From Glycomyces terrestris (lineage in GTDB: Bacteria > Actinomycetota > Actinomycetes > Mycobacteriales > Micromonosporaceae), in contig NZ_RSEB01000006.1 in assembly GCF_003933745.1 (NCBI RefSeq), positions 124,001-188,000 on the forward strand: a DNA stretch of 64,000 nucleotides, in the 5' to 3' direction. Both the position numbers and the translations under genes were made by a program. The notes beneath the pieces were generated by a model. It searched no databases. It saw nothing but the letters and a program-made list of their open reading frames with translations, and was not told the origin of the DNA. Each line of letters begins with the position of its first letter. The first letter of the stretch is position 1. Shown here piece after piece: positions 47,938-64,000 of the stretch.

Positions 47938-48942
47938 GTGAGCATCAGCGTGCTGTTCATCGGCGGAACCGGTCGGATCTCCACCTCCTGCGTGCGCGAG
48001 GCCCTCGCCCAGGGCCTCGACGTCACCGTCCTCAACCGCGGCCGCACCAGCGAGCGCGCCGTCCCCGAAGGCGCCGAGGTCCTCACCGCCGACGCGGGCG
48101 ACCCCGCCGCCGTCCGCGCCGTCCTCGGCGACCGGACCTTCGACGCCGTCGTCAACTGGGTCGTGTTCACCCCCGAGCAGGTCCGCCGCGACATCGAGCT
48201 GTTCGCCGGCCGCACCGGCCAGTACCTGTTCATCTCGTCCGCCTCGGCCTACCAGACCCCGCCCACGCACCTGCCCGTCACCGAGTCCACGCCGCTGCGC
48301 AACCCGTTCTGGCAGTACTCGCGCGACAAGATCGAGTGCGAGGACATCCTCACCGCCGCCTACCGCGAGGACGCCTTCCCCGCCACCATCGTGCGGCCCT
48401 CCCACACCTACGACGAGACCCTGCTGCCCTTCGACGGCGGCTGGACCGTCGTCGAGCGCATGCGCGCCGGCAAGCCCGTCGTCGTCCACGGCGACGGCAC
48501 CTCACTGTGGACCATCACCCACGCCCGCGACTTCGCCGTCGGCTTCACCGGCCTCCTCGGCAAGGAGGCCGCGATCGGCGAGGCGTTCCACATCACCGGC
48601 GACGAGGCCCCCACCTGGAACCAGATCTTCCTCCACGTCGCCGCCGCCGCGGGCGTCCCGGACCCGAAGCTCGTCCACGTCCCCTCAGACGCGATCGCCG
48701 CCGCCGACCCCGACTGGGGCCCGGGCCTCCTCGGCGACAAGGCCCACTCGATGGTCTTCGACAACAGCAAGATCAAGGCGCTCGTGCCCGAGTTCGGGCG
48801 CCGCACCACGCCCTACAAGCTGGGCGCGCGCGAGGTGGTCGCCTGGTACGACGCCCACCCCGAGCACCAGGTCGTCGACGCGCAGCGCGACAAGGTCATG
48901 GACTGGCTCGCCGACCGCTACGCCCCGCGCCCGATCGCGTAA
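47938..48942 (+). CDS. NAD-dependent epimerase/dehydratase (extended SDR)
   Basis: The 334-aa protein has an N-terminal GGTGRIS nucleotide loop (9-15), VLNRG after strand beta-2, and active-site Y127-S-R-D-K131. The extended substrate domain includes TIVRPSHTYDETLLPFDGGWTVVERMRAGKPVVVHGDG. Substrate probably a nucleotide sugar or related alcohol. GTG 47938 has AAGGGG about 7 nt upstream. The last 258 bp are overlapped on the other strand by the extended 3' end of the serine hydrolase gene; its TAA stop is read there as TTA. Confidence 0.9.
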   Translation: MSISVLFIGGTGRISTSCVREALAQGLDVTVLNRGRTSERAVPEGAEVLTADAGDPAAVRAVLGDRTFDAVVNWVVFTPEQVRRDIELFAGRTGQYLFISSASAYQTPPTHLPVTESTPLRNPFWQYSRDKIECEDILTAAYREDAFPATIVRPSHTYDETLLPFDGGWTVVERMRAGKPVVVHGDGTSLWTITHARDFAVGFTGLLGKEAAIGEAFHITGDEAPTWNQIFLHVAAAAGVPDPKLVHVPSDAIAAADPDWGPGLLGDKAHSMVFDNSKIKALVPEFGRRTTPYKLGAREVVAWYDAHPEHQVVDAQRDKVMDWLADRYAPRPIA

Positions 48943-50691
48943 ATCGCGCACCCGCTCCCAGCCGACCGCCTCGACGCCGTCGCCGTCCTCCCACAGGACG
49001 GCGCGGCCCTCGCGGACCTCCGCGTCGTCCACGTACACGCCCCGGCCCTGGTACACCGGGTCCGACGTGTACCGCCAGCGCAGCAGCGCGGTGCCGTCCG
49101 GCAGCGCCGCCGACGCCCGGATCCACTGCCGCCCCGAGTACCCGGAGAACGCTCCCTCGGTGCGCCAGCAGTGGTCCTCGGTCCGCAGGTCGAGCGGCAC
49201 CGGCGTCCACACCGTCCCGTCGGGGCTCGTCTCCAGCACCGCCAGGTCGGTCGCCTCGGTGTCGTACCAGAGCGCGAACCCGACGGTGGCCCGGTCGGTC
49301 GGGCGCGGCAGCGCGGCCGTGAGCGTCGCGGTCGACGCGTCGACCTGCCCCGCGTACCACGCGTCCCGGCCCCGCTCGGGCCGCACCGGCACCGCCCGGC
49401 CCAGCGGCCGCGAGGCCGCCCGCCGGTAGGCGCTGGCCGTGCCCCGGTTGCGCGTCGGGTGGACCCGGTTCGTCAGAAGCACCAGCAGCGTGCCCGCGAG
49501 CGGGTCGAGCACGATCGACGTGCCCGTGTACCCCGTGTGCCCCACCGTGACCGGTGAGCTCATCGCGTCCATGTACCAGCGCTGCCCGAGCTGCCAGCCG
49601 ATCCCGCGGGCCGCCGACTCGCCCATGCCGGCGTTCATGTCCGTGAACACCAGGCGGGCCGTGGCCTCGCTGAGGACCTCCGCGTCGCCGTAGCGGCCCC
49701 CGTTGAGGATCATCTGCCCGAACACGGCCAGGTCCCACGCGGTCGCGAACACGCCCGCGTGCCCGGCGACGCCGCCGAACGCCCACGCGTTCTCGTCGTG
49801 GACCTCCCCGTGCACGGTGCCCCGGCCCGTCCACGGCTGGTACTCCGTGGCGGCCGTCCGCGACCGGTCCGCCGGGTTGTACCCGGTGTCCTTGAGCCCC
49901 AAGGGCTCGCACACGTACGCGGCCACCAGTTCGTCCAGGCGCTGGCCCGTGACGCGTTCGAGGACCTTGCCGAGGACGATGAGGTTGAGGTCGGAGTACT
50001 CGTAGCCGCTGCCGGGGACGCGGCGCAGCGGCTGCGCGTAGATGGCGGCCATCCGGGCCGCGTCGTCGGGCTTGTCGTACAGGTTGATGAACGAGATCAT
50101 CCCGGAGGTGTGCGAGAGCAGCTGCTCCAGCGTGATCGGGGACTTGGCGGGGTCGACGGAGTCGAACTCGGGCAGGTACTCGGCGACCGGGAGCTTCAGG
50201 TCGACCACGTGGTCGTCGATGAGGCGGCCGGTGACGGTGGCGGTGAACAGCTTCGAGATGGAGGCGAGGTCGTAGACCGTGCCGGTCTCGGCGGGGAGCC
50301 GCTCGGACTCGGGCAGCTCGACGGCGGTCTCGGTCGCGTCGTCCCAGCCCGAGTAGCGGAGCCGGTGGCCGCCGGCCTCGTGCTTCACGACCACGCCGCG
50401 CCGCGCGGCCAGGACGGTGAACCCGGGGAACGAGGGCGCAGAGCCCTCCATATAGGACTTCAGGCGGGGGGTGATGAGGTCGACGTGGGCGGCGGTCAAC
50501 CGCGCTTCCGAACAGGACCCGTACCGCAGTTCGCGCGGATGTTCGGGAAAGGTCACGTCGTACGGTCCGGCGCTCGGCGGGCCGGTCAGTTCGGGCATGG
50601 AGGGGCGCTCCTCGGCGTTGGCGGCGGAGGCGAGCGCGAACGCCGACCATAGCGCCCCCGCCGCGCCCCCGAGCATGGTTCGACGCTGCAT
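48685..50691 (-). CDS. Secreted beta-lactamase-fold muropeptide hydrolase (AmiE/YbbE-like) with run-on C-terminus
   Basis: The 668-aa precursor has a signal peptide (to about ANA-EE). The S12-type catalytic domain (about 60-430) has S144-I-S-K147, Y-S-D (GYEYSDLNLIVLGKVLERVTGQ) and HTG (VGHTGYTG). A beta-sandwich domain follows at about 440-585 (LRWRYTSDPVYQGRGVYVDDAEV, like immune-inhibitor-A C-terminal modules). The last about 85 residues are antisense to the epimerase gene and look non-native. It follows nagZ-namZ, as ybbE (amiE) accompanies ybbC/ybbD in Bacillus, where the product removes peptides from MurNAc. That function is inferred. Confidence 0.8.
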   Translation of the reverse strand: MQRRTMLGGAAGALWSAFALASAANAEERPSMPELTGPPSAGPYDVTFPEHPRELRYGSCSEARLTAAHVDLITPRLKSYMEGSAPSFPGFTVLAARRGVVVKHEAGGHRLRYSGWDDATETAVELPESERLPAETGTVYDLASISKLFTATVTGRLIDDHVVDLKLPVAEYLPEFDSVDPAKSPITLEQLLSHTSGMISFINLYDKPDDAARMAAIYAQPLRRVPGSGYEYSDLNLIVLGKVLERVTGQRLDELVAAYVCEPLGLKDTGYNPADRSRTAATEYQPWTGRGTVHGEVHDENAWAFGGVAGHAGVFATAWDLAVFGQMILNGGRYGDAEVLSEATARLVFTDMNAGMGESAARGIGWQLGQRWYMDAMSSPVTVGHTGYTGTSIVLDPLAGTLLVLLTNRVHPTRNRGTASAYRRAASRPLGRAVPVRPERGRDAWYAGQVDASTATLTAALPRPTDRATVGFALWYDTEATDLAVLETSPDGTVWTPVPLDLRTEDHCWRTEGAFSGYSGRQWIRASAALPDGTALLRWRYTSDPVYQGRGVYVDDAEVREGRAVLWEDGDGVEAVGWERVRDLRDRARGVAVGEPVHDLVALRVDDLVLGVGVVPGDHLARAQLVGRGAAPELGHERLDLAVVEDHRVGLVAEEARAPVGVGGGDRV

Positions 50692-50714
50692 CGTGTCTCC
50701 TGGTTATCGTGCCA

Positions 50715-51962
50715 TCACTGAGCGGTGCCGCGATAGAGCAAGTACGACTCTCTTTGCTCGGAAAACGCATCCAATTCGTCGGACCACAGCGCCGTGACCT
50801 CGTCGACGTCCGCGCCGGCCTCGATCGCGAGCCGGACCGCCTGGTTCCCGGTGAGCTTGTCCAGCCAGAACGACGTCACGTCCTGTGACCGCCAGCCGTA
50901 CTGCGGGAAGGCGCGCCGCTGCGCGACGATCATCGCCAGCGCCGTCCTGATCGGATCGAATTCATCCCTCCGGGTGACTTGCAGCTCGACGCCGCCGCAG
51001 ACCTTTCCGGACCATTTCGAGAACGTCGGGGTGAAATACGCCTCCCGGAAGGCGGTGCCCGGCAGCCCCTCCAGCTCCTCGGACCACGCGTGGTCGATCC
51101 CGGGCGCGCCGAGGAGCTCGAACGGCTTCGTGGTGCCGCGGCCCTCCGAGAGCGCGGTGGCCTCGAACAGGCACGTCCCCGGGTACACCACGGCCGTCGC
51201 GACCGTGGGCATGTTCGGCGACGGCGGCACCCACGGCAGCCCCGTCTCCTCGAAGTGCATGCCGCGCCGCCAGCCTTCCATCCGCACCACCGCGAGGTCG
51301 ACGGCGCCGCCGAGGAACTCGCCGTTGAACAGCCCGGCGAGCTCGCCCACGGTCATGCCGTGGCGCTGCGCGATCGGCTTGAGCCCCACGAAGGTCGCGT
51401 GCTCGGGGTGGAGCACCGGCCCGCTCGCGGCCAGGCCCGTGCCCGGGTTGGGCCGGTCGAGGACCACGAACCGCAGCCCGAGCTGCCCGGCGGCCTCCAT
51501 CGCGAGGTACATGGTCCAGATGTAGGTGTAGAACCGGGCGCCCACGTCCTGGATGTCGAAGACGACGGTCTCGATCCCGGTCTCGGCGAACAGCTCCGCC
51601 ATGCGGTCCATGTCGTTGTACGCGTTGTACACCGGCAGCCCGGTCTTCGGGTCGAGGAAGAACTCCTCGCCCTCGCCGGCCTGCGAGACGCCCCGGAAGC
51701 CGTGCTCGGGCCCGAAGACCGCCGCGAGGTCGACCTTCCCGCTGCCGTGCATGAGGTCCACTTCGTGGCTCAGGTCCGGGAGCACGCCGGTCGGGTTCGA
51801 CACGACGCCGACCCGCTGCCCGGCGAGGTCGCGGAAGTCGTCGCGGGCCAGCACCTCCGCGCCGGTCCTGACGCGCCTGCCGCGGGCGGCGGCGGGTGCG
51901 GCGGCGGTGGCCGCGAGCGCGGCTCCGGCGGCGGCGCCGCCGATGACGGTCCTGCGCTTCAC
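50715..51962 (-). CDS. namZ: Exo-beta-N-acetylmuramidase NamZ (GH171, DUF1343)
   Basis: The 415-aa precursor has a signal peptide (KRRTVIGGAAAGAALAATAAAPAAA). The DUF1343/GH171 Rossmann-like domain has FGPEHGFRG (Glu86), LPVYNAYNDMDRMAELF, VFDIQDVGARFYTYIWTM, DRPNPGTG and PSPNMPT. A C-terminal part completes the fold (GGVELQVTRRDEFDPIRTALAMI). NamZ cleaves MurNAc from the non-reducing end of peptide-free glycan chains. It is 9 bp after nagZ and 23 bp before the serine hydrolase gene, so the three form an operon for exolytic wall-glycan turnover. Confidence 0.92.
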   Translation of the reverse strand: MKRRTVIGGAAAGAALAATAAAPAAARGRRVRTGAEVLARDDFRDLAGQRVGVVSNPTGVLPDLSHEVDLMHGSGKVDLAAVFGPEHGFRGVSQAGEGEEFFLDPKTGLPVYNAYNDMDRMAELFAETGIETVVFDIQDVGARFYTYIWTMYLAMEAAGQLGLRFVVLDRPNPGTGLAASGPVLHPEHATFVGLKPIAQRHGMTVGELAGLFNGEFLGGAVDLAVVRMEGWRRGMHFEETGLPWVPPSPNMPTVATAVVYPGTCLFEATALSEGRGTTKPFELLGAPGIDHAWSEELEGLPGTAFREAYFTPTFSKWSGKVCGGVELQVTRRDEFDPIRTALAMIVAQRRAFPQYGWRSQDVTSFWLDKLTGNQAVRLAIEAGADVDEVTALWSDELDAFSEQRESYLLYRGTAQ

Positions 51963-51971
51963 GTCGCCCTC

Positions 51972-53750
51972 CTAGTAGCTCAGGCCGTGGCCGAACGGGA
52001 ACAGGACCGCGCCGGGGTCGTCGGCGCGCGGGATGTCGACCGGCAGGCGCCCCTGCGGGTTCACCGAGCCGAGGATCGCGCGGACGGCCGATTCGAGGCC
52101 GTCGAGCGAGTACGAGTAGGTCGCGAGGTAGGCGTTCACGTCGTCGGGGAAGGACGCGATGTCGTAGGGGTTCTGCACCCCGATCGCGACGAGCGGGACG
52201 CCGGTGGCGGCGAGCGCCCGCACGAGCGCGGCCTGGCCCGGGTTCGCCTTGGCGTTGTTGGTCGCCACCGCGATCAGGGCCTTCCCGTCGGCGGCGGCCA
52301 CGGCCGCGTCGATCTGCGCCTGCGTCGGCGCGGTGCCGGTGACCAGGCCCGTGGGGCTCCAGCCGCGGTTCGCGAACTCGGCGACGAGCCGCGCGTTCGT
52401 CGTCACGCCCCAGCCGGTGACCAGGACGGCCCCGCCGTCGGTCGCGACCGGCAGCGTCCCGTCGTTGACGACTAGGGTCGTGGTGCGGTCCGAGAGCGCC
52501 TGCGCCGCTTCGAGGCTGGCCGGGGCGCCGACCACGTCGTTGACCAGTTCCGGGTCGGCGTACGGGTTCCCGAACAAGCCGAGCCGGTACTTCAGGCCGA
52601 GGATGCGGGTGACGGACTCGTCGATGCGCCGCTCGGTGAGCTCGCCGGTCCCGACCGCGTCGAGGACGGCGTTGAACGCGACGTCGATGTGCTCGGGCAT
52701 GAGCAGGACGTCCGCGCCGGCCAGGAGCGCGAGGACGGGGATGCGGTCGTCGCCGTAGCCGTCGCGCACGCCCTCCATGCGCAGCGAGTCGGTGATGACG
52801 ACGCCGTCGTAGCCGAGCTCCTCGCGCAGCAGCCCGGTGAGGATCTCCTCCGAGAGCGTCGCGGGCCGCAGCGAGTCGTCCAGGGCCGGGAACTGGATGT
52901 GCGCGGTCATGACGAGGTCCACGCCGGAGGCGATCGCGGCGCGGAACGGCGGGGCGTCGATCGCCTGCCACTCCTCGTAGGTGTGGTCGATGCGCGGCAG
53001 CTCGGCGTGGCTGTCGTCCTCGGTGTCGCCGTGCCCGGGGAAGTGCTTGACCGTGGCGGCGAGGTCGCCCCGGGCCTGGTAGCCCTCGACCTGCGCGGCC
53101 ACGAACGCGGCGACGTGCTCGGCGTCGGACCCGAAGGAGCGCACCCCGATCACGGGGTTGGCGGGGTTGACGTTGACGTCGGCGTCGGGCGCGAAGTTCT
53201 GGTTCAGTCCCATGGCGCGCAGCTCGGTCCCGGCGATCACGGCCGCGGCCCGGGCGGCCTCGGGGTCGTGGGTCGCGCCGAGCGCCATCGCGCCGGGCAG
53301 CTGCGTGGCGGGCGGGCCGATGCGGGTGACGAGGCCGTGCTCCTGGTCGGTGGCGATGAACAGCGGCGTGCCGCAGTCGGCGAGGGCCGCGTCCTGGAGC
53401 CCGTTGGAGAGGGCCGTGATCTGGTCGGGGTTCGCGACGTTGTTCGACCAGGCGAAGTAGATGATCCCGCCGAGGTGGTAGGTCTCGATGAGCTCGGCGG
53501 CGTTGTCGACGCCGTGCGCGGCCCGGTTGGCGGCGACGTCGGCGGCGGCCGTGGTGTCGGCGGTCTGCCCGTACGCGTAGGTGGTGAACAGCTGTCCGAC
53601 CTTCTCCTCCAGGCTCATGGCCTTGAGGCGGCGCTTGACGAACCGGCGCTCGCCCCGGTCGCCGTGCGCGTGCGCGGTTCCTGCGGCGGCCGCCGCCGCG
53701 GCGGCGCCGAGGGCGGCGGCGAGCACGGTCCGGCGGGGATGCGTCTCCAT
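51972..53750 (-). CDS. nagZ: GH3 beta-N-acetylglucosaminidase NagZ, two-domain secreted type
   Basis: The 592-aa precursor has a signal peptide (to about AHAHG). The GH3 barrel (about 35-390) carries the NagZ-specific KHFPGHGDTEDDSH loop, with the Asp246-His248 acid/base dyad, and nucleophile Asp321 (VVITDSLRMEG). A C-terminal alpha/beta sandwich (about 400-592) is as in Bacillus NagZ (YbbD). It removes GlcNAc from muropeptides outside the membrane. ATG 53750 has GGAG 7 nt upstream. It starts the nagZ-namZ-hydrolase operon; a 135-bp AT-richer gap separates it from ldcA. Confidence 0.93.
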   Translation of the reverse strand: METHPRRTVLAAALGAAAAAAAAGTAHAHGDRGERRFVKRRLKAMSLEEKVGQLFTTYAYGQTADTTAAADVAANRAAHGVDNAAELIETYHLGGIIYFAWSNNVANPDQITALSNGLQDAALADCGTPLFIATDQEHGLVTRIGPPATQLPGAMALGATHDPEAARAAAVIAGTELRAMGLNQNFAPDADVNVNPANPVIGVRSFGSDAEHVAAFVAAQVEGYQARGDLAATVKHFPGHGDTEDDSHAELPRIDHTYEEWQAIDAPPFRAAIASGVDLVMTAHIQFPALDDSLRPATLSEEILTGLLREELGYDGVVITDSLRMEGVRDGYGDDRIPVLALLAGADVLLMPEHIDVAFNAVLDAVGTGELTERRIDESVTRILGLKYRLGLFGNPYADPELVNDVVGAPASLEAAQALSDRTTTLVVNDGTLPVATDGGAVLVTGWGVTTNARLVAEFANRGWSPTGLVTGTAPTQAQIDAAVAAADGKALIAVATNNAKANPGQAALVRALAATGVPLVAIGVQNPYDIASFPDDVNAYLATYSYSLDGLESAVRAILGSVNPQGRLPVDIPRADDPGAVLFPFGHGLSY

Positions 53751-53885
53751 GGCGCGACTCCAGTCTCTGCGGGGATTCGGGGGCGGTCCCTTCGCGACGG
53801 GTTGACCCGATCCGCCCATCCTGGCAGAAAGCTTCAAGTGAAGGCAAGACTACGGAGAGAATTTTCAGAAACTGGCGGGCGGCCG
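53751..53885 (-). promoter_or_regulatory. Promoter region of nagZ operon
   Basis: No gene. On the minus strand a -35-like TTGCCT (53842-53847) and CAGGAT about 18 bp downstream make a weak promoter. An imperfect palindrome around AAGCTT (53829-53834) lies between them. The regulator is unknown. Confidence 0.4.
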
Positions 53886-54803
53886 CTAGCGCAGCGCCGG
53901 CTCCGCGAACGCCAGCGTCCCCGCGTCCGCGTCCAGGGTCGCCTTGAGCCCCAACGGGACCGTGAGCGTGTTCGGGCAGTGGCCGAAGCAGAAGTCCCAG
54001 ACGACCGGCACGCCGAGGTCCCCGAGCAGGTCCTCGAACAGCGCGCGCACCTCCGCCTCGGGCCCGCATTCGACCCAGGAGCCGAGGACGACCCCGGCGA
54101 TCCCGTCGAACCAGCCGGCGCGCCGCAGCTGCGTCAGGGCCCGGTCGAGCCGGTACGGCGCCTCGCCGACGTCCTCCAGCAGCAGCAGGCCGCCCGCGAG
54201 GCTCTCGCGGTGCTCGGCGGTGCCGATCCCGGCGGCCAGGAGCGTCAGCGTCCCGCCGACGGTCACCCCGGTCGCCCTCCCGCCCGTGATCGGCTTCGCG
54301 AAGCGCGGCGCGAGGACCTGCACCCGCTCGGGCTCGAACAGCGTCAGCCGCAGGTGCTCGCGCATCGCCTCGTCGGCGGCGAACGCGGACCAGGCCGGCA
54401 TGGGGCCGTGGATCGTCGCCGTCCCCAGCTTGAGCGCGACCGCCTCGTGCAGGGCCGTCACGTCGCTGAAGCCCACGAGCGCCTTCGGCTCGGCCCCGCG
54501 CAGCCGGACCCAGTCGACGCGGTCGAGCATCCGCTGCGCCCCGTAGCCGCCGCGCGCGGCGATCACGGCCGCGAACGACGGGTCGGCCCAGGCCGCCTCG
54601 AAGTCCGCGGCCCGCTCGGCGTCGCCGCCGGCCAGGTACGCGCCCTGGGCCGCCGCGTGCGGCAGGAGCACCGGCTCCAGGCCCCACGAGCGCAGGACGC
54701 CAAGTCCCGCTTCGAGGTTCGCGGTGGGGGAAGGGCCCGCGGGGGAGACCACCGCGACCCGGTCGCCGGGGACGAGCCGCCGCGGCCGGCGCAGCGCCCT
54801 CAC
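53886..54803 (-). CDS. ldcA: LD-carboxypeptidase LdcA (S66)
   Basis: The 305-aa cytosolic S66 peptidase has nucleophile Ser113 (GFSDVTALH), Glu210 (LLLLEDVGE) and His275 (FGHCPNT), the LdcA triad. The N-terminal domain starts GDRVAVVSPAGPS. LdcA removes the terminal D-Ala from murein tetrapeptides after the diamino acid. GTG 54803 overlaps the S9 peptidase stop (GTGA). In Bacillus the equivalent ykfA lies in the dpp operon, matching this context. Confidence 0.92.
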   Translation of the reverse strand: MRALRRPRRLVPGDRVAVVSPAGPSPTANLEAGLGVLRSWGLEPVLLPHAAAQGAYLAGGDAERAADFEAAWADPSFAAVIAARGGYGAQRMLDRVDWVRLRGAEPKALVGFSDVTALHEAVALKLGTATIHGPMPAWSAFAADEAMREHLRLTLFEPERVQVLAPRFAKPITGGRATGVTVGGTLTLLAAGIGTAEHRESLAGGLLLLEDVGEAPYRLDRALTQLRRAGWFDGIAGVVLGSWVECGPEAEVRALFEDLLGDLGVPVVWDFCFGHCPNTLTVPLGLKATLDADAGTLAFAEPALR

Positions 54804-56779: not shown

Positions 56780-56788
56780 GGTCTGCTC

Positions 56789-58081
56789 CTAAGCGCTCAG
56801 CAGGAAGTCGTCCAGGACCCGCAGGCCGAACCGCAGCCCCTCGACCGGGACGCGCTCGTCGACGCCGTGCGCGAGCTTCCCGTACCCGAAGCCGGGCGGC
56901 AGCGCGAGCGGCGAGAACCCGTAGCCGGTGATCCCCAGGGGCGTGAACGGCTTCGCGTCGGTGCCGCCGGACATGCAGTACGGCACCGGGTGCCCCTCGG
57001 GGTCGAACTTCTCGATCGCCGCGCGCATCGCCCGGAACGTCGGCGAGTCGACCGGCGCGATGAGCGACGCGTCCCGATGCGCGTAGCGCCACTGGACGTC
57101 GGGCCCGCACAGCTCGTCCAGGGTCGCCTCGAACTCGGCCTCCCCGCCGGGCACCACCCGGCCGTCCACCTCGGCCCGGGCGTGCTCGGGGATGACGTTG
57201 ATCTTGTACCCCGCCTCCAGGACCGTCGGGTTCGCGCTGTTGCGCAGCGTCGACTCCACCAGCTGCGCCGCCTCGCCCAGGCCCGACAGGTCCTCGTAGT
57301 CGGGGGCGACGCCGTGCAGCTCCGCCAGCTCGCGCACCGCGGCCTCCACCACGGGCGTCACCCGCAGCGGCCACTCGTGCGCGCCGATGCGCGCCACGGC
57401 CGCCGCGAGCCTGCTCACCGCGTTCTCGGGGTTCCGCTTGGAGCCGTGCCCGGCCCGGCCCCGCGCCGTCAGCTCCAGCCAGGCCGTGCCGCGCTCGCCC
57501 GCCGCGATCGGGTAGATCCGCATCCCCTCGCTGTGGAAGGTGAACCCGCCCATCTCCGAGATCCCCTCGGTGCAGCCCTCGAACAGCTCCGCGTGCTCGT
57601 CCGCGAGGAACCGCGACCCGTAGTCGGCCTCGGCCTCCTCGTCCGCCAGGAACGCGAACACGATCGACCGCCGCGGCCGCACGCCCTCGCGCGCCCAGGA
57701 CCGCACGGCCGCGAGCATCATCGCGTCCATGCTCTTCATGTCGATCGCGCCGCGGCCCCAGAGCATCCCGTCGGCGTCGATCTCGCCCGAGAACGGGTCC
57801 ACGCTCCAGTCGGCGGCCTCGGCGGGGACCACGTCGAGGTGCCCGTGCACCAGCAGCGCCGGAGCGTCCGGATCGGCCCCCGCCAACCGGGCCACCACAT
57901 TGGACCGACCCGGGGCCTTCTCGAGGACCACCGGTTCCAGCCCGGCCTCCGCCAGCTTCACGGCCGCGTACTCCGCCGCCGCCCGCTCGTCCCCGTCGCC
58001 GCCGCCCCGGTTCGTCGTGTCGATGCGGATCAGGTCGCGAGTGAACTCGACGACCTCCTCGAACGACCGCTCGTCAGCCAT
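56789..58081 (-). CDS. M20 family metallopeptidase
   Basis: The 430-aa protein has the M20 zinc motifs HGHLDVVPAEAADW (about 78-91), GRGAIDMKSMDAM, DEEAEADYGS and the C-terminal GGTDAKPF, plus the inserted dimerisation domain. It cleaves a dipeptide or N-acyl amino acid; in this operon a murein dipeptide is a reasonable guess. Overlaps the M55 gene by 8 bp. Confidence 0.9.
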   Translation of the reverse strand: MADERSFEEVVEFTRDLIRIDTTNRGGGDGDERAAAEYAAVKLAEAGLEPVVLEKAPGRSNVVARLAGADPDAPALLVHGHLDVVPAEAADWSVDPFSGEIDADGMLWGRGAIDMKSMDAMMLAAVRSWAREGVRPRRSIVFAFLADEEAEADYGSRFLADEHAELFEGCTEGISEMGGFTFHSEGMRIYPIAAGERGTAWLELTARGRAGHGSKRNPENAVSRLAAAVARIGAHEWPLRVTPVVEAAVRELAELHGVAPDYEDLSGLGEAAQLVESTLRNSANPTVLEAGYKINVIPEHARAEVDGRVVPGGEAEFEATLDELCGPDVQWRYAHRDASLIAPVDSPTFRAMRAAIEKFDPEGHPVPYCMSGGTDAKPFTPLGITGYGFSPLALPPGFGYGKLAHGVDERVPVEGLRFGLRVLDDFLLSA

Positions 58082-58904
58082 ACTGCTCCTCCATCGCCGC
58101 GCTCGCCAGCGTCGTGACCGCCTTGAAGCAGCGGATCGCCTCGTACATCGTGGCCGCCTCGTACCCGACGCGCCGCTCCCCGCACACCGCCACGCCCGGG
58201 ACCACCGTCACCGCCCGCGCCAGGTGGTCCGCGTCGAACTCGACCTCGACCCGGTGCGGGAGGACGACCGGCTCGTGCCGCACCGCCAGCGCCACCGCCT
58301 CCGCGGCCCCGGCCGTGATCGCCTCGGCCGTCGCCTCGGGCGGGTCGCACCGCGCCGCGTACCGCGACACGCACTCCTTCACCTGCACGCCGACCGCTTG
58401 CGGCGCATAGCCCCTCGCGTCCTCGACGGTCTTGTCGTCGCCGATCACCATGATGACCGGGACCCCGAACTCGGCCGCCACCGCCGCGTTCAGGCGGCCC
58501 TCGCTCGCGCGCACCCCGTCGAGCCACACGCCCGTCACCGAGTTCGCCAGGTACGTGTGCGCCAGCACCCCCTCCTCGCCGGCGCCCGCGTGGTAGCCCA
58601 GGAACACCACGCCGTCCACGTCCCCGTGCTGCACGCCCTCCATCATGGACAGGTCCTTGTGCCGGCCGGTGATCATCGACGCCCGCGGGTCCAGCCGCTC
58701 CAGCAGCAGGTTCCGCATCGACCAGTGCGCCTCGTTCACCACCACCGCGTCCGCGCCCTGCATGAACAGGCCCTGCACCGCCGCGTTCACGTCGCCGGTG
58801 AACACCGGCCGCATCCGCTCCCAGCCCGGCCCGCCCGGCAGCACGTCCTCGGGGCACGTCACACCCGTCGCGCCCTCCATGTCGGCGCTGATGAGGATCT
58901 TCAC
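58074..58904 (-). CDS. dppA: M55 D-aminopeptidase (DppA-like)
   Basis: The 276-aa protein has all five M55 metal ligands at positions like Bacillus DppA: Asp8 and Glu10 (ISADMEG), His60 (NEAHW), His105 (LGYHAG) and Glu135 (ASEG), plus His116 (AHTYLANSV). The family forms decameric rings that release D-Ala from D-Ala-D-Ala and similar peptides. GTG 58904 overlaps the upstream ATPase stop (GTGA), tying it to the dpp-type importer. Confidence 0.93.
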   Translation of the reverse strand: MKILISADMEGATGVTCPEDVLPGGPGWERMRPVFTGDVNAAVQGLFMQGADAVVVNEAHWSMRNLLLERLDPRASMITGRHKDLSMMEGVQHGDVDGVVFLGYHAGAGEEGVLAHTYLANSVTGVWLDGVRASEGRLNAAVAAEFGVPVIMVIGDDKTVEDARGYAPQAVGVQVKECVSRYAARCDPPEATAEAITAGAAEAVALAVRHEPVVLPHRVEVEFDADHLARAVTVVPGVAVCGERRVGYEAATMYEAIRCFKAVTTLASAAMEEQYG

Positions 58905-59893
58905 GCCGCCATCCTCGCATGCACGAGATGGCACGCCGCCGCGTGCGCCCCGGACCCCAGCACCGGGTCCTCGCCCTCGCACCGCCCCAGCACCGCCAGG
59001 GCGGCCCCCGACGCCACCTCCTGGCACCGCGGCCGGAACCGGCACCCGCCCGGAATCCGCGACGCGTCCGGCAGCTCCCCGGCCAGCACCACCGGCTCCG
59101 CCGCGCCGTCCAGGAACGCGGCCGAGTTGGGCAGCACCGACACCAGCGCGCGCGTGTACGGGTGCCGCGGCTCGGTGAGCACCTGCTCCACCGGCCCCTG
59201 CTCCACGATCCGCCCCAGGTACATGATCGCGATCCGGTCCGCGATGCTCCACGCCAGCCCCAGGTCGTGCGTGATCACCAGCGCCCCGAGCCCCGCGTCC
59301 TCCTTGAGCCGCAGCAGGAGCGAGAGGATCTCCCCGCGCACCGACGCGTCCAGCGACGCCACCGGCTCGTCGGCGACCAGGATGCTCGGCTCCAGCACCA
59401 GCGCCCCCGCGATCACCACGCGCTGGCGCTGCCCGCCCGAGAGCTCGTGCGGGTACGCGAGGAAGAACCGCTCCGGCGGCCGCAGCCCCGCCCGCGCGAG
59501 CGCGTCCGCGACCCGCGCCGGCTCGTCGTCGCCGATCCCGTGGATCCGCAGCCCCTCGGCCACCGCCTCGTACACGGTGTGCCGCGGGTTCAGCGCCCCC
59601 GACGGGTCCTGGAGCACCAGCTGCACCTGCCGCCGGTACGCCTTGAGCGCCTTCGACGACCGCCCCAGCGGCCGCCCGCCGAACGCGACCTCGCCGCCGG
59701 TGGCCCGCTCCAGGCCCAGCAGCGTGCGCGCCAGCGTCGTCTTCCCGCACCCGGACTCCCCGGCCAGGGCCACGATCTCCCCGGGCCGGACCTCCAGGTC
59801 CACGCCGTCCACGGCCCGCGCGGTCCGCCCCCCGGGCAGTCCGAACTCGACCCGCAGGCCCCGCGCCGACAGCACCAGCTCATCCGATGACAA
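58901..59893 (-). CDS. Dipeptide/oligopeptide ABC transporter ATPase (DppF-like)
   Basis: The 330-aa ATPase has Walker A GESGCGKT (45-52), signature ELSGGQRQRVVIAGAL, Walker B SILVADEPVASLD and switch ITHD. The C-terminal oligo/dipeptide domain (HPYTRALVSVLPN, then GGCRFRPRC, with two further Cys in the tail) is typical of DppF/OppF. It starts inside the DppD-like gene (14-bp overlap). Second ATPase of the peptide importer. Confidence 0.93.
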   Translation of the reverse strand: MSSDELVLSARGLRVEFGLPGGRTARAVDGVDLEVRPGEIVALAGESGCGKTTLARTLLGLERATGGEVAFGGRPLGRSSKALKAYRRQVQLVLQDPSGALNPRHTVYEAVAEGLRIHGIGDDEPARVADALARAGLRPPERFFLAYPHELSGGQRQRVVIAGALVLEPSILVADEPVASLDASVRGEILSLLLRLKEDAGLGALVITHDLGLAWSIADRIAIMYLGRIVEQGPVEQVLTEPRHPYTRALVSVLPNSAAFLDGAAEPVVLAGELPDASRIPGGCRFRPRCQEVASGAALAVLGRCEGEDPVLGSGAHAAACHLVHARMAA

Positions 59894-60863
59894 CGGGCTC
59901 CCCTTCCTGGGCCACGAAGCACGCGCTCGACCGCGCGCCCCCGATGTGCAACAGCTCCGGCGCCGCCTCGCCGCACCGCTCGACCGCCACCGCGCACCGC
60001 GGCCGGAACGAGCAGCCCTCCGGCAGCCGCGCCGGGTCCGGCGGGTCGCCCGCCAGGCCGCCCGGGTTCCGGCGCGAGGCCGGGTCCCCGATCACCGGGA
60101 ACGCCGCCCCGAGCGCCGCCGAGTACGGGTGCCGCGCCTGCGCGAACACCTCCCGCGCCGGCCCCTGCTCGACCACCCGTCCCGCGTACATGACCGCGGC
60201 CGTGTCGCACACCGAGGAGAGCACCGACAGGTCGTGGCTGATCATCACCAGGCCCACGCCCCGCTCCGACACCAGCCCCGAGATCAGTTGCAGCACTTGG
60301 GCCTGCACCATGACGTCGAGCGCCGTCGTCGCCTCGTCGGCGATGATCAGGTCCGGGTCGCACGCCAGCGCCATCGCGATCATGACCCGCTGGCGCTGCC
60401 CGCCCGACAGCTCGTGCGGGTAGCTCCGCGCCCGCGACGCCGGCAGCCCGACCCGCTCGAGCAGGCCCTCGGCCCGCTTCGCGGCCGCCGCCGCGCTCAA
60501 GCCCTTGTCGTGCACCAGCATCGGCTCGGCCACCTGCCGCCCGATCCGCTGCACCGCGTTGAGCGAGTGCATCGCCCCCTGGAACACGATCGAGGCGCCC
60601 GTCCACCGCACCGCCCGCAGCCGGCCCCACCCCATCGCGAGCAGGTCCTCGCCGTCGAGCAGGATCTCGCCGGTGACCTCCGCGGTCTTCGGCAGCAGCC
60701 GCAGCACCGCCATCGCGAGCGTCGACTTCCCGCAGCCCGACTCGCCCGCGATGCCGAGCGTCGTCCCGGCCTCCACCGTCAGGTCGACGCCGCGCACGGC
60801 CGGGATGCGCCCGCGCGAGCCGGTGTACGTGACGTGCACGTCCCGGAACTCCAGGAGCGTCAT
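59880..60863 (-). CDS. Dipeptide/oligopeptide ABC transporter ATPase (DppD-like)
   Basis: The 327-aa ATPase has Walker A GESGCGKS (40-47), Q-loop SIVFQGAMHSLNAVQRIG (the Opp/Dpp-specific form), signature ELSGGQRQRVMIAMAL, Walker B DLIIADEATTALD and H-loop ISHD. The C-terminal extension is EGCSFRPRCAVAVERC. It overlaps the permease stop by 4 bp. First ATPase of the importer. Confidence 0.93.
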   Translation of the reverse strand: MTLLEFRDVHVTYTGSRGRIPAVRGVDLTVEAGTTLGIAGESGCGKSTLAMAVLRLLPKTAEVTGEILLDGEDLLAMGWGRLRAVRWTGASIVFQGAMHSLNAVQRIGRQVAEPMLVHDKGLSAAAAAKRAEGLLERVGLPASRARSYPHELSGGQRQRVMIAMALACDPDLIIADEATTALDVMVQAQVLQLISGLVSERGVGLVMISHDLSVLSSVCDTAAVMYAGRVVEQGPAREVFAQARHPYSAALGAAFPVIGDPASRRNPGGLAGDPPDPARLPEGCSFRPRCAVAVERCGEAAPELLHIGGARSSACFVAQEGEPVVIG

Positions 60864-61792
60864 GCGGACTCACCTCGCAGCCGGGGGTTGAACACGGCCT
60901 CCAGGGCCCGCCCGCACATCATGAACGCGAGCACGACCAGCAGGATCGCCAGGCCCGGCGGCAGCAGGTACCACCAGGCGTGCGCCGAGACCGCGCCGTT
61001 GTCGCTGGCGCGGTTGAGGATCGAGCCCCACGAGACCACGTTCGGGTCGCCCAGGCCCAGCCACGCGAGCGAGGACTCCATGAGGATCGCCGAGGGCACG
61101 AGCAGGGTCGCGCTGGCGAGCACCAGCGGGAGGACGTTGGGGAGAATGTGCTTGGTCATCTGGTGCCAGTGGCCCGCGCCGAGCGCGCGGGCGCGCTCGA
61201 GGTAGGGCCGGGACTGGACGGTGAGCGTCTGGGCCCGCACCAGGCGGGTCGTGCCCGACCAGGAGACGAGCGCGATGACGATGATGGTGGTGGCCATGCT
61301 CCGGCCGAGCACGGCCAGGAGTGCGATGGCCACGACCAGGCTGGGCAGCACCATGAACCAGTCGGAGACGCGCAGCGCGACCCAGCCGTACCAGCCGCCG
61401 ACGTGGCCGCTGGTGACGCCGACGGCGGTGCCGATGACGACGGCGACGACGGTCGCGGTGAGTCCGATGAGGAGGGAGATCCGCGAGCCCCACAGCGTCA
61501 GCGCGAGCACGGAGCGGCCGACCTCGTCGGTGCCGAGCGGGAACGCCGCGCTCGGCGGCTCCATGCGCCCGCCGGTGGCCTGCGTGACCGAGAGCGCGGA
61601 CTCGTCGACGAGGACGGGCGCGGCGATCGCCAGGACCACGATGGCGCCCAGGAGGACCAGGCCGATCATGCCGGTGCGCTGGGCCCGGTAGGCGGCCCAG
61701 GAGCGGGCGAGCGACTGCCGCCGCCGCGCCCGTGCCAGCCGGCGCCGCGCGGCGGAGGCCGCGGGCGCCGGGGTCGGTGTGGATGCCGTCAT
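60860..61792 (-). CDS. Dipeptide/oligopeptide ABC transporter permease (DppC-like)
   Basis: The 310-aa inner-membrane permease has about six helices. Its N-terminal OppC segment (RTGMIGLVLLGAIVVLAIAAPVL) and the PLGTDEVGRSVLALTLWGSRISLLIG signature are typical of DppC/OppC. The EAA loop is around YLERARALGAGHWHQMTKHILPNVLPL. Overlaps DppB-like and DppD-like genes by ATGA. Confidence 0.93.
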   Translation of the reverse strand: MTASTPTPAPAASAARRRLARARRRQSLARSWAAYRAQRTGMIGLVLLGAIVVLAIAAPVLVDESALSVTQATGGRMEPPSAAFPLGTDEVGRSVLALTLWGSRISLLIGLTATVVAVVIGTAVGVTSGHVGGWYGWVALRVSDWFMVLPSLVVAIALLAVLGRSMATTIIVIALVSWSGTTRLVRAQTLTVQSRPYLERARALGAGHWHQMTKHILPNVLPLVLASATLLVPSAILMESSLAWLGLGDPNVVSWGSILNRASDNGAVSAHAWWYLLPPGLAILLVVLAFMMCGRALEAVFNPRLRGESA

Positions 61793-62847
61793 GACTTCCG
61801 AATCCGTGGGTCGATGAACCAGTAGAGGATCTCGGCGGCGAGGACCGCGAGGATCGTGGAGGCCGAGAACAGCACGAACAGCGCCTGGAGGACCGGCCGG
61901 TCGGGGTAGAAGACCGCCTGCACGAACAGGCTGCCCAGGCCCGGCCAGGAGAACACCGCCTCGGTCACGATGGAGCCGTTGACGATCCCGCCGATGGCGA
62001 GGAACACCAGCGTCACGGTGGGCAGGAGCGCGTTCGGCACCGCGTGCCGGTCGCGCACCTGGTCGTCCCGCAGGCCCTTGGCCCGTGCCGTCGTCAGGTA
62101 GTCCGAGCCGATCTCGTCCAGGATGGACGAGCGCATGATCATGAGGTACCCGGCGTACACCACGGCCGTGTAGGTGAGCACCGGCAGCACCAGGTGGTGG
62201 GCGATGTCGAGCGCCTGCGGCCAGAACTGCGGCGGCGTGCTCGGCGAGCGCATCCCGTTGACCGGGAAGATCCCCAGGTACCGCGCGAAGACGAGGATGA
62301 CGATCATGCCGAGCCAGAACGTGGGCGCCGAGTACAGGAGCAGGCCGGCCGCGACGTGCCCGCGGTCGTAGCGGCTGCCCTGCCGCCAGCCGGTGCGGGT
62401 GCCGATCCAGAAGCCGAGCAGGACGGCGAGCACCATGCCGGTGCCGGAGAGCAGGATCGTGGCCGGCAGCCGCTCGACGATGAGGTCGAAGATCGGGCGC
62501 CGGTACTGGAACGAGTCCCCGAGGTCCATGGTGAGCGTTCCGATGATGTAGTCCCAGAACTGCTCCCACATGGGCCGGTCGAGGCCGAGCTCGGCCCGGA
62601 GCGCGGCGCGCTCCTCGGGCGAGACGGGCCGCTCCTTGGTGAGCTGGTCGATCGGGTCCCCGGCGATGAGCCGGAAGATGAAGAACGACGAGAACAGCAC
62701 CAGCAGGAGCGACACGGCGGCGCCGGCGACGTGCTTGCAGAGGTACCGCCCGAACCCGTTCGCGACGCGCCCGGGGCGGCGCCCCGCGGACGGGGCGGCG
62801 CCGGAGGGCGCCGCCGCGTCCGCGGGGGTCGGACCGTCGGCCGTCAT
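61789..62847 (-). CDS. Dipeptide/oligopeptide ABC transporter permease (DppB-like)
   Basis: The 352-aa permease has a long Pro/Ala-rich N-terminal tail, then about six helices. It has the DppB signature (SFFIFRLIAGDPIDQL, LGLDRPMWEQFWDYI) and EAA loop DYLTTARAKGLRDDQVRDRHAVPNALLP. The first about 35 residues are unusual for the family and could mean the true start lies further in, although the ATGA overlap with the binding-protein gene supports ATG 62847. Confidence 0.92.
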   Translation of the reverse strand: MTADGPTPADAAAPSGAAPSAGRRPGRVANGFGRYLCKHVAGAAVSLLLVLFSSFFIFRLIAGDPIDQLTKERPVSPEERAALRAELGLDRPMWEQFWDYIIGTLTMDLGDSFQYRRPIFDLIVERLPATILLSGTGMVLAVLLGFWIGTRTGWRQGSRYDRGHVAAGLLLYSAPTFWLGMIVILVFARYLGIFPVNGMRSPSTPPQFWPQALDIAHHLVLPVLTYTAVVYAGYLMIMRSSILDEIGSDYLTTARAKGLRDDQVRDRHAVPNALLPTVTLVFLAIGGIVNGSIVTEAVFSWPGLGSLFVQAVFYPDRPVLQALFVLFSASTILAVLAAEILYWFIDPRIRKS

Positions 62848-64000
62848 TCGCGCTCGTCCGCGGTCTTCCTGCGCCGCAGCGCGAACACGACGGCGCCGGC
62901 CACGACCACGACCGCGGCGCCCGCGACGGCGATCCACACCCAGGCCGGCGTCCCGGCCTCCTCGGCTGCGCCGACCGGCTGCGCGGTGACGTACGACCAC
63001 GCGTAGCCCTGCTGGCCGGTGATCATGCCGCCGTCGCTGGGCTGGAGCGTCATGCCGGTGATCTTGTCGCTGTTGTACGCCTCGAGCACGTTCTGGTAGT
63101 ACAGGTAGATCACGGGCGTGTCCTCGTAGAGCATCCGCTGCTGCTCCTTGATGAGCGCGGCGCGCGCGTCCGGGTCGGACTCGACCTTCTGCTGCTCGTG
63201 GAGCGCGTCGAACTCGGGGTTGCAGTAGTTGTTCTCGCTGGAGCGCTCGGTGCCGTCGGTCAGGGTCGGCAGGACCGCGCAGGTGTGCATGCCGAGCTGC
63301 TCGGTCGGGTTGGGGCCGACGCCCCAGCCGGAGAAGGCGATGTCGAACTCGCCCAGGTAGGCCATGTCGTTCAGGGTGCCCTGCTCGATGGCCTCGGGCT
63401 TGATCTCCAGGCCGAGTTCGGTCCACCACTCGGTCACGAACTGCACCACGGTCGCGTAGTCGGTGTTGTCGGCGTGCTGGAAGAACCGGAAGCTCAGCCG
63501 CTCGCCGGTGCCCGGCATGGTCCGGATCCCGTCCTCGCCGCGCACGTACCCGGCCTCGTCGAGGAGGGCGTTCGCCGCGTCGATGTCGAACTCCAGCAGG
63601 GAGTCCCCGCCGTCCCAGTGGTACTGCTCGAAGATCTCGGGGATGATCGAGGTCGCGGGCTGGCCGTTGCCGTCGAGGACCCGGTCGACCAGGGCCGCCT
63701 TGTCGATCGCCATGTGCATGGCCTGGCGGACGATCGGGTCCTTGAGCGCGGGGTGCCCGTCGCCGAACGCGGTGCCGTCCTGCGTCACCGAGTTGTAGTT
63801 GAGGGTGAGCGAGACGTACCGGCGGCCCTGCGCGTTGTTGACGGTGATGCCGTCCTGGCCGTCGAGGGCCTCGATCTGGGCCGGGTTGAGGCCGTTCACG
63901 ATGTCGACCTCGCCGGCTTCGAGCGCGGCCACGGCCGCGTCGGTCTCGGTGTAGTAGTCGAAGACGATCTCGTCGAACCCGGGCGCGCCGTCCCAGTAGT
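62844..64000 (-). CDS. Peptide-binding protein (SBP_bac_5), C-terminally membrane-anchored, 5' end outside window
   Basis: The 384 visible residues form the C-terminal part of a family 5 solute-binding protein (AVAALEAGEVDIVNGLNPAQIEAL, VRQAMHMAIDKAALVDRVLDG, EIFEQYHWDGGDS, DALHEQQKVESDPDARAALIKEQQRMLYEDTPVIYLYYQN). The end is a single membrane helix (TPAWVWIAVAGAAVVVVAGAVVFALRRRK), so it is anchored by its C-terminus. The start and any signal or lipobox lie beyond 64000. First visible gene of the transporter-peptidase operon. Confidence 0.9.
   Translation of the reverse strand, partial: YWDGAPGFDEIVFDYYTETDAAVAALEAGEVDIVNGLNPAQIEALDGQDGITVNNAQGRRYVSLTLNYNSVTQDGTAFGDGHPALKDPIVRQAMHMAIDKAALVDRVLDGNGQPATSIIPEIFEQYHWDGGDSLLEFDIDAANALLDEAGYVRGEDGIRTMPGTGERLSFRFFQHADNTDYATVVQFVTEWWTELGLEIKPEAIEQGTLNDMAYLGEFDIAFSGWGVGPNPTEQLGMHTCAVLPTLTDGTERSSENNYCNPEFDALHEQQKVESDPDARAALIKEQQRMLYEDTPVIYLYYQNVLEAYNSDKITGMTLQPSDGGMITGQQGYAWSYVTAQPVGAAEEAGTPAWVWIAVAGAAVVVVAGAVVFALRRRKTADERE

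Follow-up and report, generated by a model that had tools for sequence, protein, structure and literature searches.

The twelve genes considered here lie in a 64,000-nucleotide stretch of Glycomyces DNA (the window, i.e., positions 124001-188000 of contig C12 in the 5.24-Mb genome labelled G000) and probably belong to a single peptidoglycan-salvage regulon, in which they make up two neighbouring operons of the same orientation. Operon 1 (nagZ-namZ-amiE-like) is predicted to supply exported, glycan-directed enzymes, and operon 2, which opens with the gene of a solute-binding protein (SBP; SBP-dppBCDF-M55-M20-S9-S66), a peptide importer and its peptidases. At the level of sequence, this proposal is supported by the gene content, by a predicted control sequence common to both operons, and by the rarity and persistence of that sequence. 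As the control sequence is shared even where the two modules are not neighbours, the salvage tie is better supported than by adjacency alone. The features are given below in order of transcription, followed by the two control sites (gene starts and stops were taken from the sequence, the start codons being the likeliest choices).

62844-64655 (655 bp beyond the window), minus strand: SBP, family-5 solute-binding protein of a Dpp/Opp importer (Pfam)
61789-62847, minus strand: DppB-type permease (Pfam)
60860-61792, minus strand: DppC-type permease (Pfam)
59880-60863, minus strand: DppD-type ATPase (named by sequence reading, outside the family-library scan)
58901-59893, minus strand: DppF-type ATPase (named by sequence reading, outside the family-library scan)
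58074-58904, minus strand: M55 D-aminopeptidase, DppA-like (Pfam, alignment to 1hi9)
56789-58081, minus strand: M20 peptidase, PRK07906 subfamily (Pfam, NCBI model)
54800-56779, minus strand: S9 aminopeptidase (Pfam, PDB 3azo nearest)
53886-54803, minus strand: S66 LD-carboxypeptidase, LdcA/YkfA type (Pfam, solved-structure matches)
51972-53750, minus strand: NagZ, GH3 beta-N-acetylglucosaminidase (signal-like N-terminus, homologous to B. subtilis YbbD/NagZ, 3bmx)
50715-51962, minus strand: NamZ, exo-N-acetylmuramidase family (PF07075 and PF20732, signal-like N-terminus)
48685-50691, minus strand: AmiE/PBP4B-type serine hydrolase (PF00144, signal-like N-terminus)
53815-53867, minus strand: predicted nagZ promoter/operator of composite build (a TTGCC -35 element flanked on either side by a 15-bp box, the boxes being set 31 bp apart)
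64785-64733, minus strand: predicted twin promoter/operator before the SBP gene, outside the window

All twelve genes (48685-64655) are read from the minus strand and are tightly packed. In transcription order, the junctions are overlaps of 4, 4, 4, 14, 4 and 8 bp, a gap of 9 bp and an overlap of 4 bp as far as S66, followed by gaps of 135 bp to nagZ, 9 bp to namZ and 23 bp to the hydrolase gene. A Pfam scan of ten of the twelve proteins (without DppD and DppF) placed 10/10 over the curated cut-off, the families being SBP_bac_5 (on the part 62844-63932), BPD_transp_1 (twice), M55, M20, S9 and S66 (N and C) in the peptide module and GH3 (N and C), NamZ (N and C) and Beta-lactamase among the glycan genes. 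The original prediction, made from the letters of the window, had named these twelve genes with their kinds, strand, tight junctions and the 135-bp gap; coordinates and Pfam confirm it, with DppD and DppF assigned by sequence reading. Thirteen further Glycomyces genomes preserve this gene order, so the cluster is not a matter of chance.

An A+T-rich block occupies part of the 135 bp ahead of nagZ, in surroundings of 73% G+C. It is conserved among linked as well as unlinked relatives (those with the two modules side by side and those without), and the region upstream of SBP carries its twin. Judged by eye, including the -35/-10 spacing, the common layout comprises a 15-bp box 1 (TGAAAAyTyTCTyCr), a TTGmC -35 element, a 15-bp box 2 (GAAGnnTTyC core) located 31 bp after box 1, and a -10-like hexamer 18 nt past the -35. 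The nagZ and SBP sites of this genome are identical at 31/53 positions without gaps. Among the upstream regions compared, the nagZ site is present in 20 of 22 (18 from Glycomyces, window included, along with G034 and G025), and both misses, G050 and G040, belong to other families; this count excludes two loci at contig ends (L043, L048) and three distant NagZ loci (L058-L060), and for L036 and L046 the site was located upstream of the gene by a whole-locus search. The SBP site is present in all 16 upstream regions compared (those of SBP matches scoring 500 bits or more), a count that excludes the distant SBPs of other families as well as L049 and L038, where the stretch ends; the genomes of the latter two do show the site in a pattern search.

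In that search (up to 3 mismatches), the only matches in the own 5.24-Mb genome were the nagZ and SBP sites, with 0 for the control, and over 61 genomes the pattern matched in 30, as against a single match for its reversed form, used as the control. Matches outside Glycomyces carry 2 or 3 mismatches, except the SBP site of G034. A looser pattern (up to 2 mismatches) gave three matches in the own genome (GH25, nagZ and SBP; control 0) and left the murQ|murR site unreached; both patterns were composed with the known sites in view. The shared promoter is also retained where the modules lie apart, viz., in G012, G015 and G001 and in a second genus (G034).

Furthermore, a weight matrix was built on six loci that have nagZ away from dpp (four from Glycomyces, G034 and G025), taking the nagZ site of each, and scanned over 160 kb of own DNA, consisting of 98 kb around the window and other pieces, one of them around MurQ. 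The four top scores were those of nagZ (53.7), SBP (38.0), L119:13158 (20.6) and L119:10513 (13.7). The best score in 30 random 160-kb sequences was 9.3, letter shuffles of each site reached its score in 0/20000 cases, and no other place in the 160 kb exceeds the random background. The third site corresponds to the promoter of a gene for a GH25 muramidase whose N-terminus is signal-like, and the fourth is the divergent region between murQ and murR. Across 21 MurR loci (one from the own genome and one from each of the other 21 Glycomyces genomes except G019), the GH25 site is the first or second matrix match in 20, and the 21st (G001) is without a GH25 match there. As a search string fixing part of box 1 picked the sites, box 2 is the fairer evidence: it stands at 31 bp in 19/20 nagZ sites, 16/16 SBP sites, 20/20 listed GH25 sites (where it is degenerate in the own genome) and 21/21 murQ|rpiR sites. 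The same neighbourhood holds a second GH3 NagZ-like enzyme (L119:13229-14827, G000:C11; 59% identical), encoded upstream of the GH25 gene that lies beside murR; a NagZ-like match is found in 19 of the 20 other Glycomyces MurR loci, including the GH25-less G001.

Genes that would handle the amino sugar lie on contig C11, which encodes MurQ (TIGR00274, 352.7 bits against a cut-off of 302), a BadF-type kinase, a MurR/RpiR regulator and a sugar-type ATP-binding cassette (ABC) permease; the "neither MurQ nor MurK" of the original prediction is not supported. The regulator, encoded divergently from murQ, combines an RpiR helix-turn-helix with a SIS domain, and the NCBIfam MurR/RpiR models match it under their cut-offs. 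Its gene is in the vicinity of GH25 and the second GH3, with the kinase, an RpiR paralogue and the permease nearby, and is present in 22/22 Glycomyces genomes. In the class, a MurR-like gene occurs within 5 kb of NamZ in at least 14 genomes and at least 9 of the 22 NamZ-positive genera; these matches being only 42-52% identical, some may be paralogues. In two genomes of other families, murR-murQ is joined to one module or the other: G050 has the order nagZ-namZ-ami-rpiR-murQ, and G042 the order SBP-dppBCDF-rpiR-murQ, its importer (SBP 24% identical) running straight into rpiR-murQ. According to PMC5061867, MurR of E. coli represses when MurNAc-6-phosphate (phosphorylated N-acetylmuramic acid) is absent. 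The position of box 2 between -35 and -10 fits repression, and from the shared box layout we infer that MurR may bind the nagZ and SBP operators.

A working scheme can be assembled from these parts, in which the regulator's mode of action, the inducer, the importer substrate and the enzyme activities are all proposed rather than observed. Each operon would start at a promoter whose -35 element lies between the two boxes, and a weaker site of the same spacing is predicted between murQ and murR. The MurR/RpiR protein is the likeliest candidate for the regulator; it may repress until MurNAc-6-phosphate, presumably the inducer in Glycomyces as well, accumulates. The secreted GH25 muramidase, preceded by a related site, could generate the fragments. 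Outside the cell, NagZ would remove N-acetylglucosamine (GlcNAc), the AmiE-like hydrolase would free the stem peptide from MurNAc, and NamZ would take MurNAc off glycan ends; each of the three shows twin arginines at its N-terminus. Operon 2 would then import the peptides for intracellular trimming, with S66 cleaving the terminal D-Ala from the tetrapeptide, M55 acting on D-amino-acid peptides, and S9 and M20 on the rest. For MurNAc itself a different uptake route is envisaged, with the BadF-type kinase and MurQ acting on it thereafter. The chances are about even that, in full, one MurR-type regulon joins an exported lysozyme (GH25), exo-acting glycan hydrolases, and a murein-peptide importer with peptidases but without an Ala-Glu epimerase, such that a MurNAc-6-phosphate sensor also commands peptide uptake. 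If true, such a regulon possibly serves feeding on the walls of other bacteria, not the recycling of the cell's own.

Several observations weigh against the two-operon regulon or parts of it. Matches with 2 mismatches occur in G027 and, as a second one, in G034 without the query genes in the fetched stretches, and G003 has no match within 3 mismatches, yet its nagZ site is recognisable. As for the importer, the best solved matches of SBP (N-terminal 551 of 603 amino acids) are Lmo0135, a peptide-binding protein and AppA; it is not closest to DppE or MppA, and DppE (8ay0) ranks about thirtieth (E 1.7e-26). No Ala-Glu epimerase was recognised among eight enolase-superfamily proteins of the genome, none of which passes an epimerase cut-off, in keeping with the earlier remark that a YkfB-type epimerase was unseen. 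These eight (from a genome search with Pfam MR_MLE_C giving nine matches, the ninth, a weak one, being left out) fit sugar-acid dehydratases better than epimerase models; the cut-off of any model is exceeded by just three of them, which leaves room for an unusual epimerase. The unrecognised step hints at an unknown route for L-Ala-D-Glu. An NlpC/P60 gene is likewise absent from the locus and its flanks (a genome-wide NlpC/P60 search was not made). With regard to the regulator, the box centres of the murQ|murR site differ from those of nagZ and SBP (TGAAGTAAAATTTCA versus TGAAAACTTTCTTCA), so that the latter could be the target of some other regulator; a further RpiR gene (L119:7483-8301, G000:C11), its product 38% identical to MurR, is divergent from the BadF-type kinase gene; and MurR carries one internal stop codon in G009 (L223) and G019 (L210), which sequencing error or decay could explain.

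These last three points favour a regulon that is real but not driven by MurNAc-6-phosphate, its control sequence serving a different regulator in the place of MurR, such as the RpiR paralogue encoded next to the kinase gene. Such an arrangement is conceivable, though on the whole doubtful: the murQ|murR region has the same two-box, 31-bp layout in every one of its 21 loci, the nagZ matrix picks that region up, and MurR-like genes accompany NamZ in several genera, as given above.

Adjacency of the modules is restricted to one Glycomyces clade. The complete order epi / Ami-NamZ-NagZ / S66-S9-M20-M55-DppFDCB-SBP (epi being an epimerase-like neighbour gene) occurs in 14/22 Glycomyces genomes, window included, with 64-96% identity of the best tblastn segment in the 13 others; G019 is unjudgeable, as its contigs end within the region. 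Both modules are present but apart in G012 and G021, where epi adjoins S66. G009 and G020 have the peptide module and no NamZ match, and G001, G003 and G015 have NamZ and no M55 match, G015 retaining SBP-DppBCDF-M20-S9-S66 without M55. In a tree of MurR and MurQ, the 14 linked genomes, with G019 grouping among them, are split off from the rest by a branch of support 1.000, and as they form a single clade, the juxtaposition is most simply explained by one event. Two further arrangements were observed in the genus. In the small genome G001, an SBP-type promoter lies upstream of S9-S66 (L204, G001:C46:55000-69500), in a 14.5-kb stretch free of matches to the importer, M55 and M20, and in G009 (L103, G009:C55:18000-37900) an AmiE-like gene directly follows S66, NagZ and NamZ not being found in the locus.

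Beyond the genus, the modules of G034 lie about 0.7 Mb apart. Among 394 genomes of the class, 75 have NamZ, 111 have M55 (110 of them above the cut-off) and 62 have the two together, as against about 21 expected with no correction for phylogeny; by genus, 12 of the 22 with NamZ also have M55 versus about 5.7 expected (Fisher p 0.0025, phylogeny again not corrected). The two genes share a contig in 17 class genomes and are close in the window alone (6.9 kb), the distance in the other 16 being 0.4 to 5.9 Mb; in the remaining 45 they occupy different contigs, where a contig end could conceal a neighbour. Among the best 80 of at least 585 named NamZ loci (flanks up to 10 kb), Dpp/M55/S66 genes occur only at the two Glycomyces loci; a distant DppF-like ATPase (31-35%) is encoded at five others, and two have a distant S9 on the opposite strand, one of them with a distant SBP as well. 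Adjacency as a widely conserved trait is therefore not borne out.

It appears unlikely, nevertheless, that the adjacency records nothing beyond the shared ancestry of one Glycomyces clade, functionally silent and with a general or non-murein importer. That account draws on the single clade of linked genomes, on the equally good retention of the neighbour gene epi, on the wide separation of the genes in the class where it can be judged, and on a binding protein that is not DppE-like; it is countered by the persistence of the nagZ-type promoter in G012, G015, G001 and G034 with the modules apart, by the presence of M55 and S66 inside the importer operon, and by the co-occurrence of NamZ and M55. 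A single integrated operon, transcribed from SBP to the hydrolase and kept adjacent by selection for co-expression, is very unlikely; the conserved promoter-like block in the 135-bp gap led to its rejection as the leading account. The common strand, the shortness of that gap (read-through of operon 2 into operon 1 is quite possible) and a scan of the minus strand at 48500-64000 with no terminator-like site speak for it, but the S66-nagZ gap ranges from 114 to 2811 bp in linked relatives and the adjacency is limited to one clade.

By tblastn ends, which also gave this gap range and are approximate, the other junctions of linked relatives measure at most 98 bp, except for 1452 bp between M55 and M20 in G006. 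Of the combined glycan and peptide recycling originally proposed, the functional tie is supported (shared promoter, co-occurrence, G050 and G042) and the one integrated operon is not. No RNA structure was detected in the 135-bp gap (z 0.37), and a sigma-70 scan of 48500-64000 gave one weak promoter-like match elsewhere and left the nagZ promoter unflagged (the SBP promoter lies outside the scanned region). In G005 (L038), about 2.8 kb of extra sequence is present between S66 and NagZ.

The family evidence agrees with the enzyme kinds proposed, at varying depth. NamZ matches PF07075 (249.6 bits, cut-off 26.9) and PF20732 (173.5 bits, cut-off 25) over its full length and is related to two solved proteins without assigned function; ybbC of B. 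subtilis is taken here to be namZ. For NagZ, B. subtilis NagZ (3bmx; E 7.9e-88) is the second-best solved match after 6k5j, and the NCBIfam beta-N-acetylhexosaminidase model PRK05337 gives 172.8, under its cut-off of 207. The AmiE-like hydrolase, whose gene adjoins nagZ-namZ, scores 211 bits with PF00144, and its best NCBIfam model, PBP4B, gives 159 bits versus a cut-off of 385. The M55 protein aligns over its length to DppA (1hi9) and retains the Asp, Glu and His positions that we take to be the metal ligands and the catalytic His. In S66, aligned to PA5198 (1zl0; presumably an LD-carboxypeptidase), the Ser, Glu and His taken to be catalytic in LdcA are present, and its best matches include 6uuk, a chain named muramoyltetrapeptide carboxypeptidase. 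The nearest PDB match of S9 is 3azo, an aminopeptidase (806 bits) that we believe to be a puromycin hydrolase, and M20 falls in PRK07906, a model carrying no named function. The C-terminus of SBP bears a hydrophobic stretch resembling a membrane anchor.

A review (PMC13204101) names extracellular NagZ, NamZ and a Dpp-type ABC transporter as parts of Gram-positive recycling, so systems of this kind are already known. In the B. subtilis murQ-murR-murP-amiE-nagZ-ybbC cluster (PMC5061867), NagZ, NamZ, an AmiE-family hydrolase, MurQ, MurR and the export of the hydrolases are the same as in Glycomyces, whereas the Glycomyces hydrolase triad adjoins a peptide importer instead of murQ-murR, the genes near murQ include a sugar-type ABC permease and a BadF-type kinase in place of MurP, and a GH25 muramidase apparently shares the control sequence. 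The dppA-dppBCDE-ykfABCD operon (PMC2954226), whose DppE binds murein tripeptide (PMC10009517), likewise unites M55 DppA, S66 YkfA and a Dpp importer; the Glycomyces operon differs in having M20 and S9 instead of the YkfB epimerase and the NlpC/P60 protein YkfC, in a promoter seemingly shared with the glycan operon, and in an SBP that is not DppE-like. The E. coli murQP-yfeW divergon with its MurR repressor (PMC5061867) resembles Glycomyces in murR being divergent from murQ and in encoding a PF00144-type protein (PBP4B); unlike Glycomyces, it is described with phosphotransferase uptake and no peptide importer in the murQP-yfeW operon. Wall-sugar and wall-peptide salvage sit in separate clusters in B. 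subtilis; the parts found here are of known kinds, and what is new is that they are apparently controlled together with a muramidase. A literature search, with most subscription papers outside its coverage, showed, among the records listed, no title on a combined NamZ/Dpp locus or an actinomycete MurR regulon. The short, highly specific operator, together with the muramidase, offers a testable handle on peptidoglycan feeding in actinomycetes: it names a probable regulator and gives a functional hint at the cargo of such Dpp importers, which is unreadable from sequence alone.

Upstream of the SBP gene, past 64 kb, the cluster does not continue with an epimerase, NlpC/P60, MurQ or MurK gene, a continuation that had been considered at the outset; a divergent cluster follows instead, in which two AspT-type exchangers flank a class-I aminotransferase-fold (PF00155) enzyme, presumably an aspartate decarboxylase (window 64886 onward, L002:1886-6920), with parts kept in several relatives. 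No tRNA genes were found. At the opposite end, the AmiE-like gene is about 86 amino acids longer than in 10/14 relatives (579-582 amino acids), the extension (48685-48942) being antisense to the convergent epimerase-like gene in a 258-bp overlap; the same 258-bp overlap is present in G019, and in G013 the AmiE-like frame runs to 985 amino acids.

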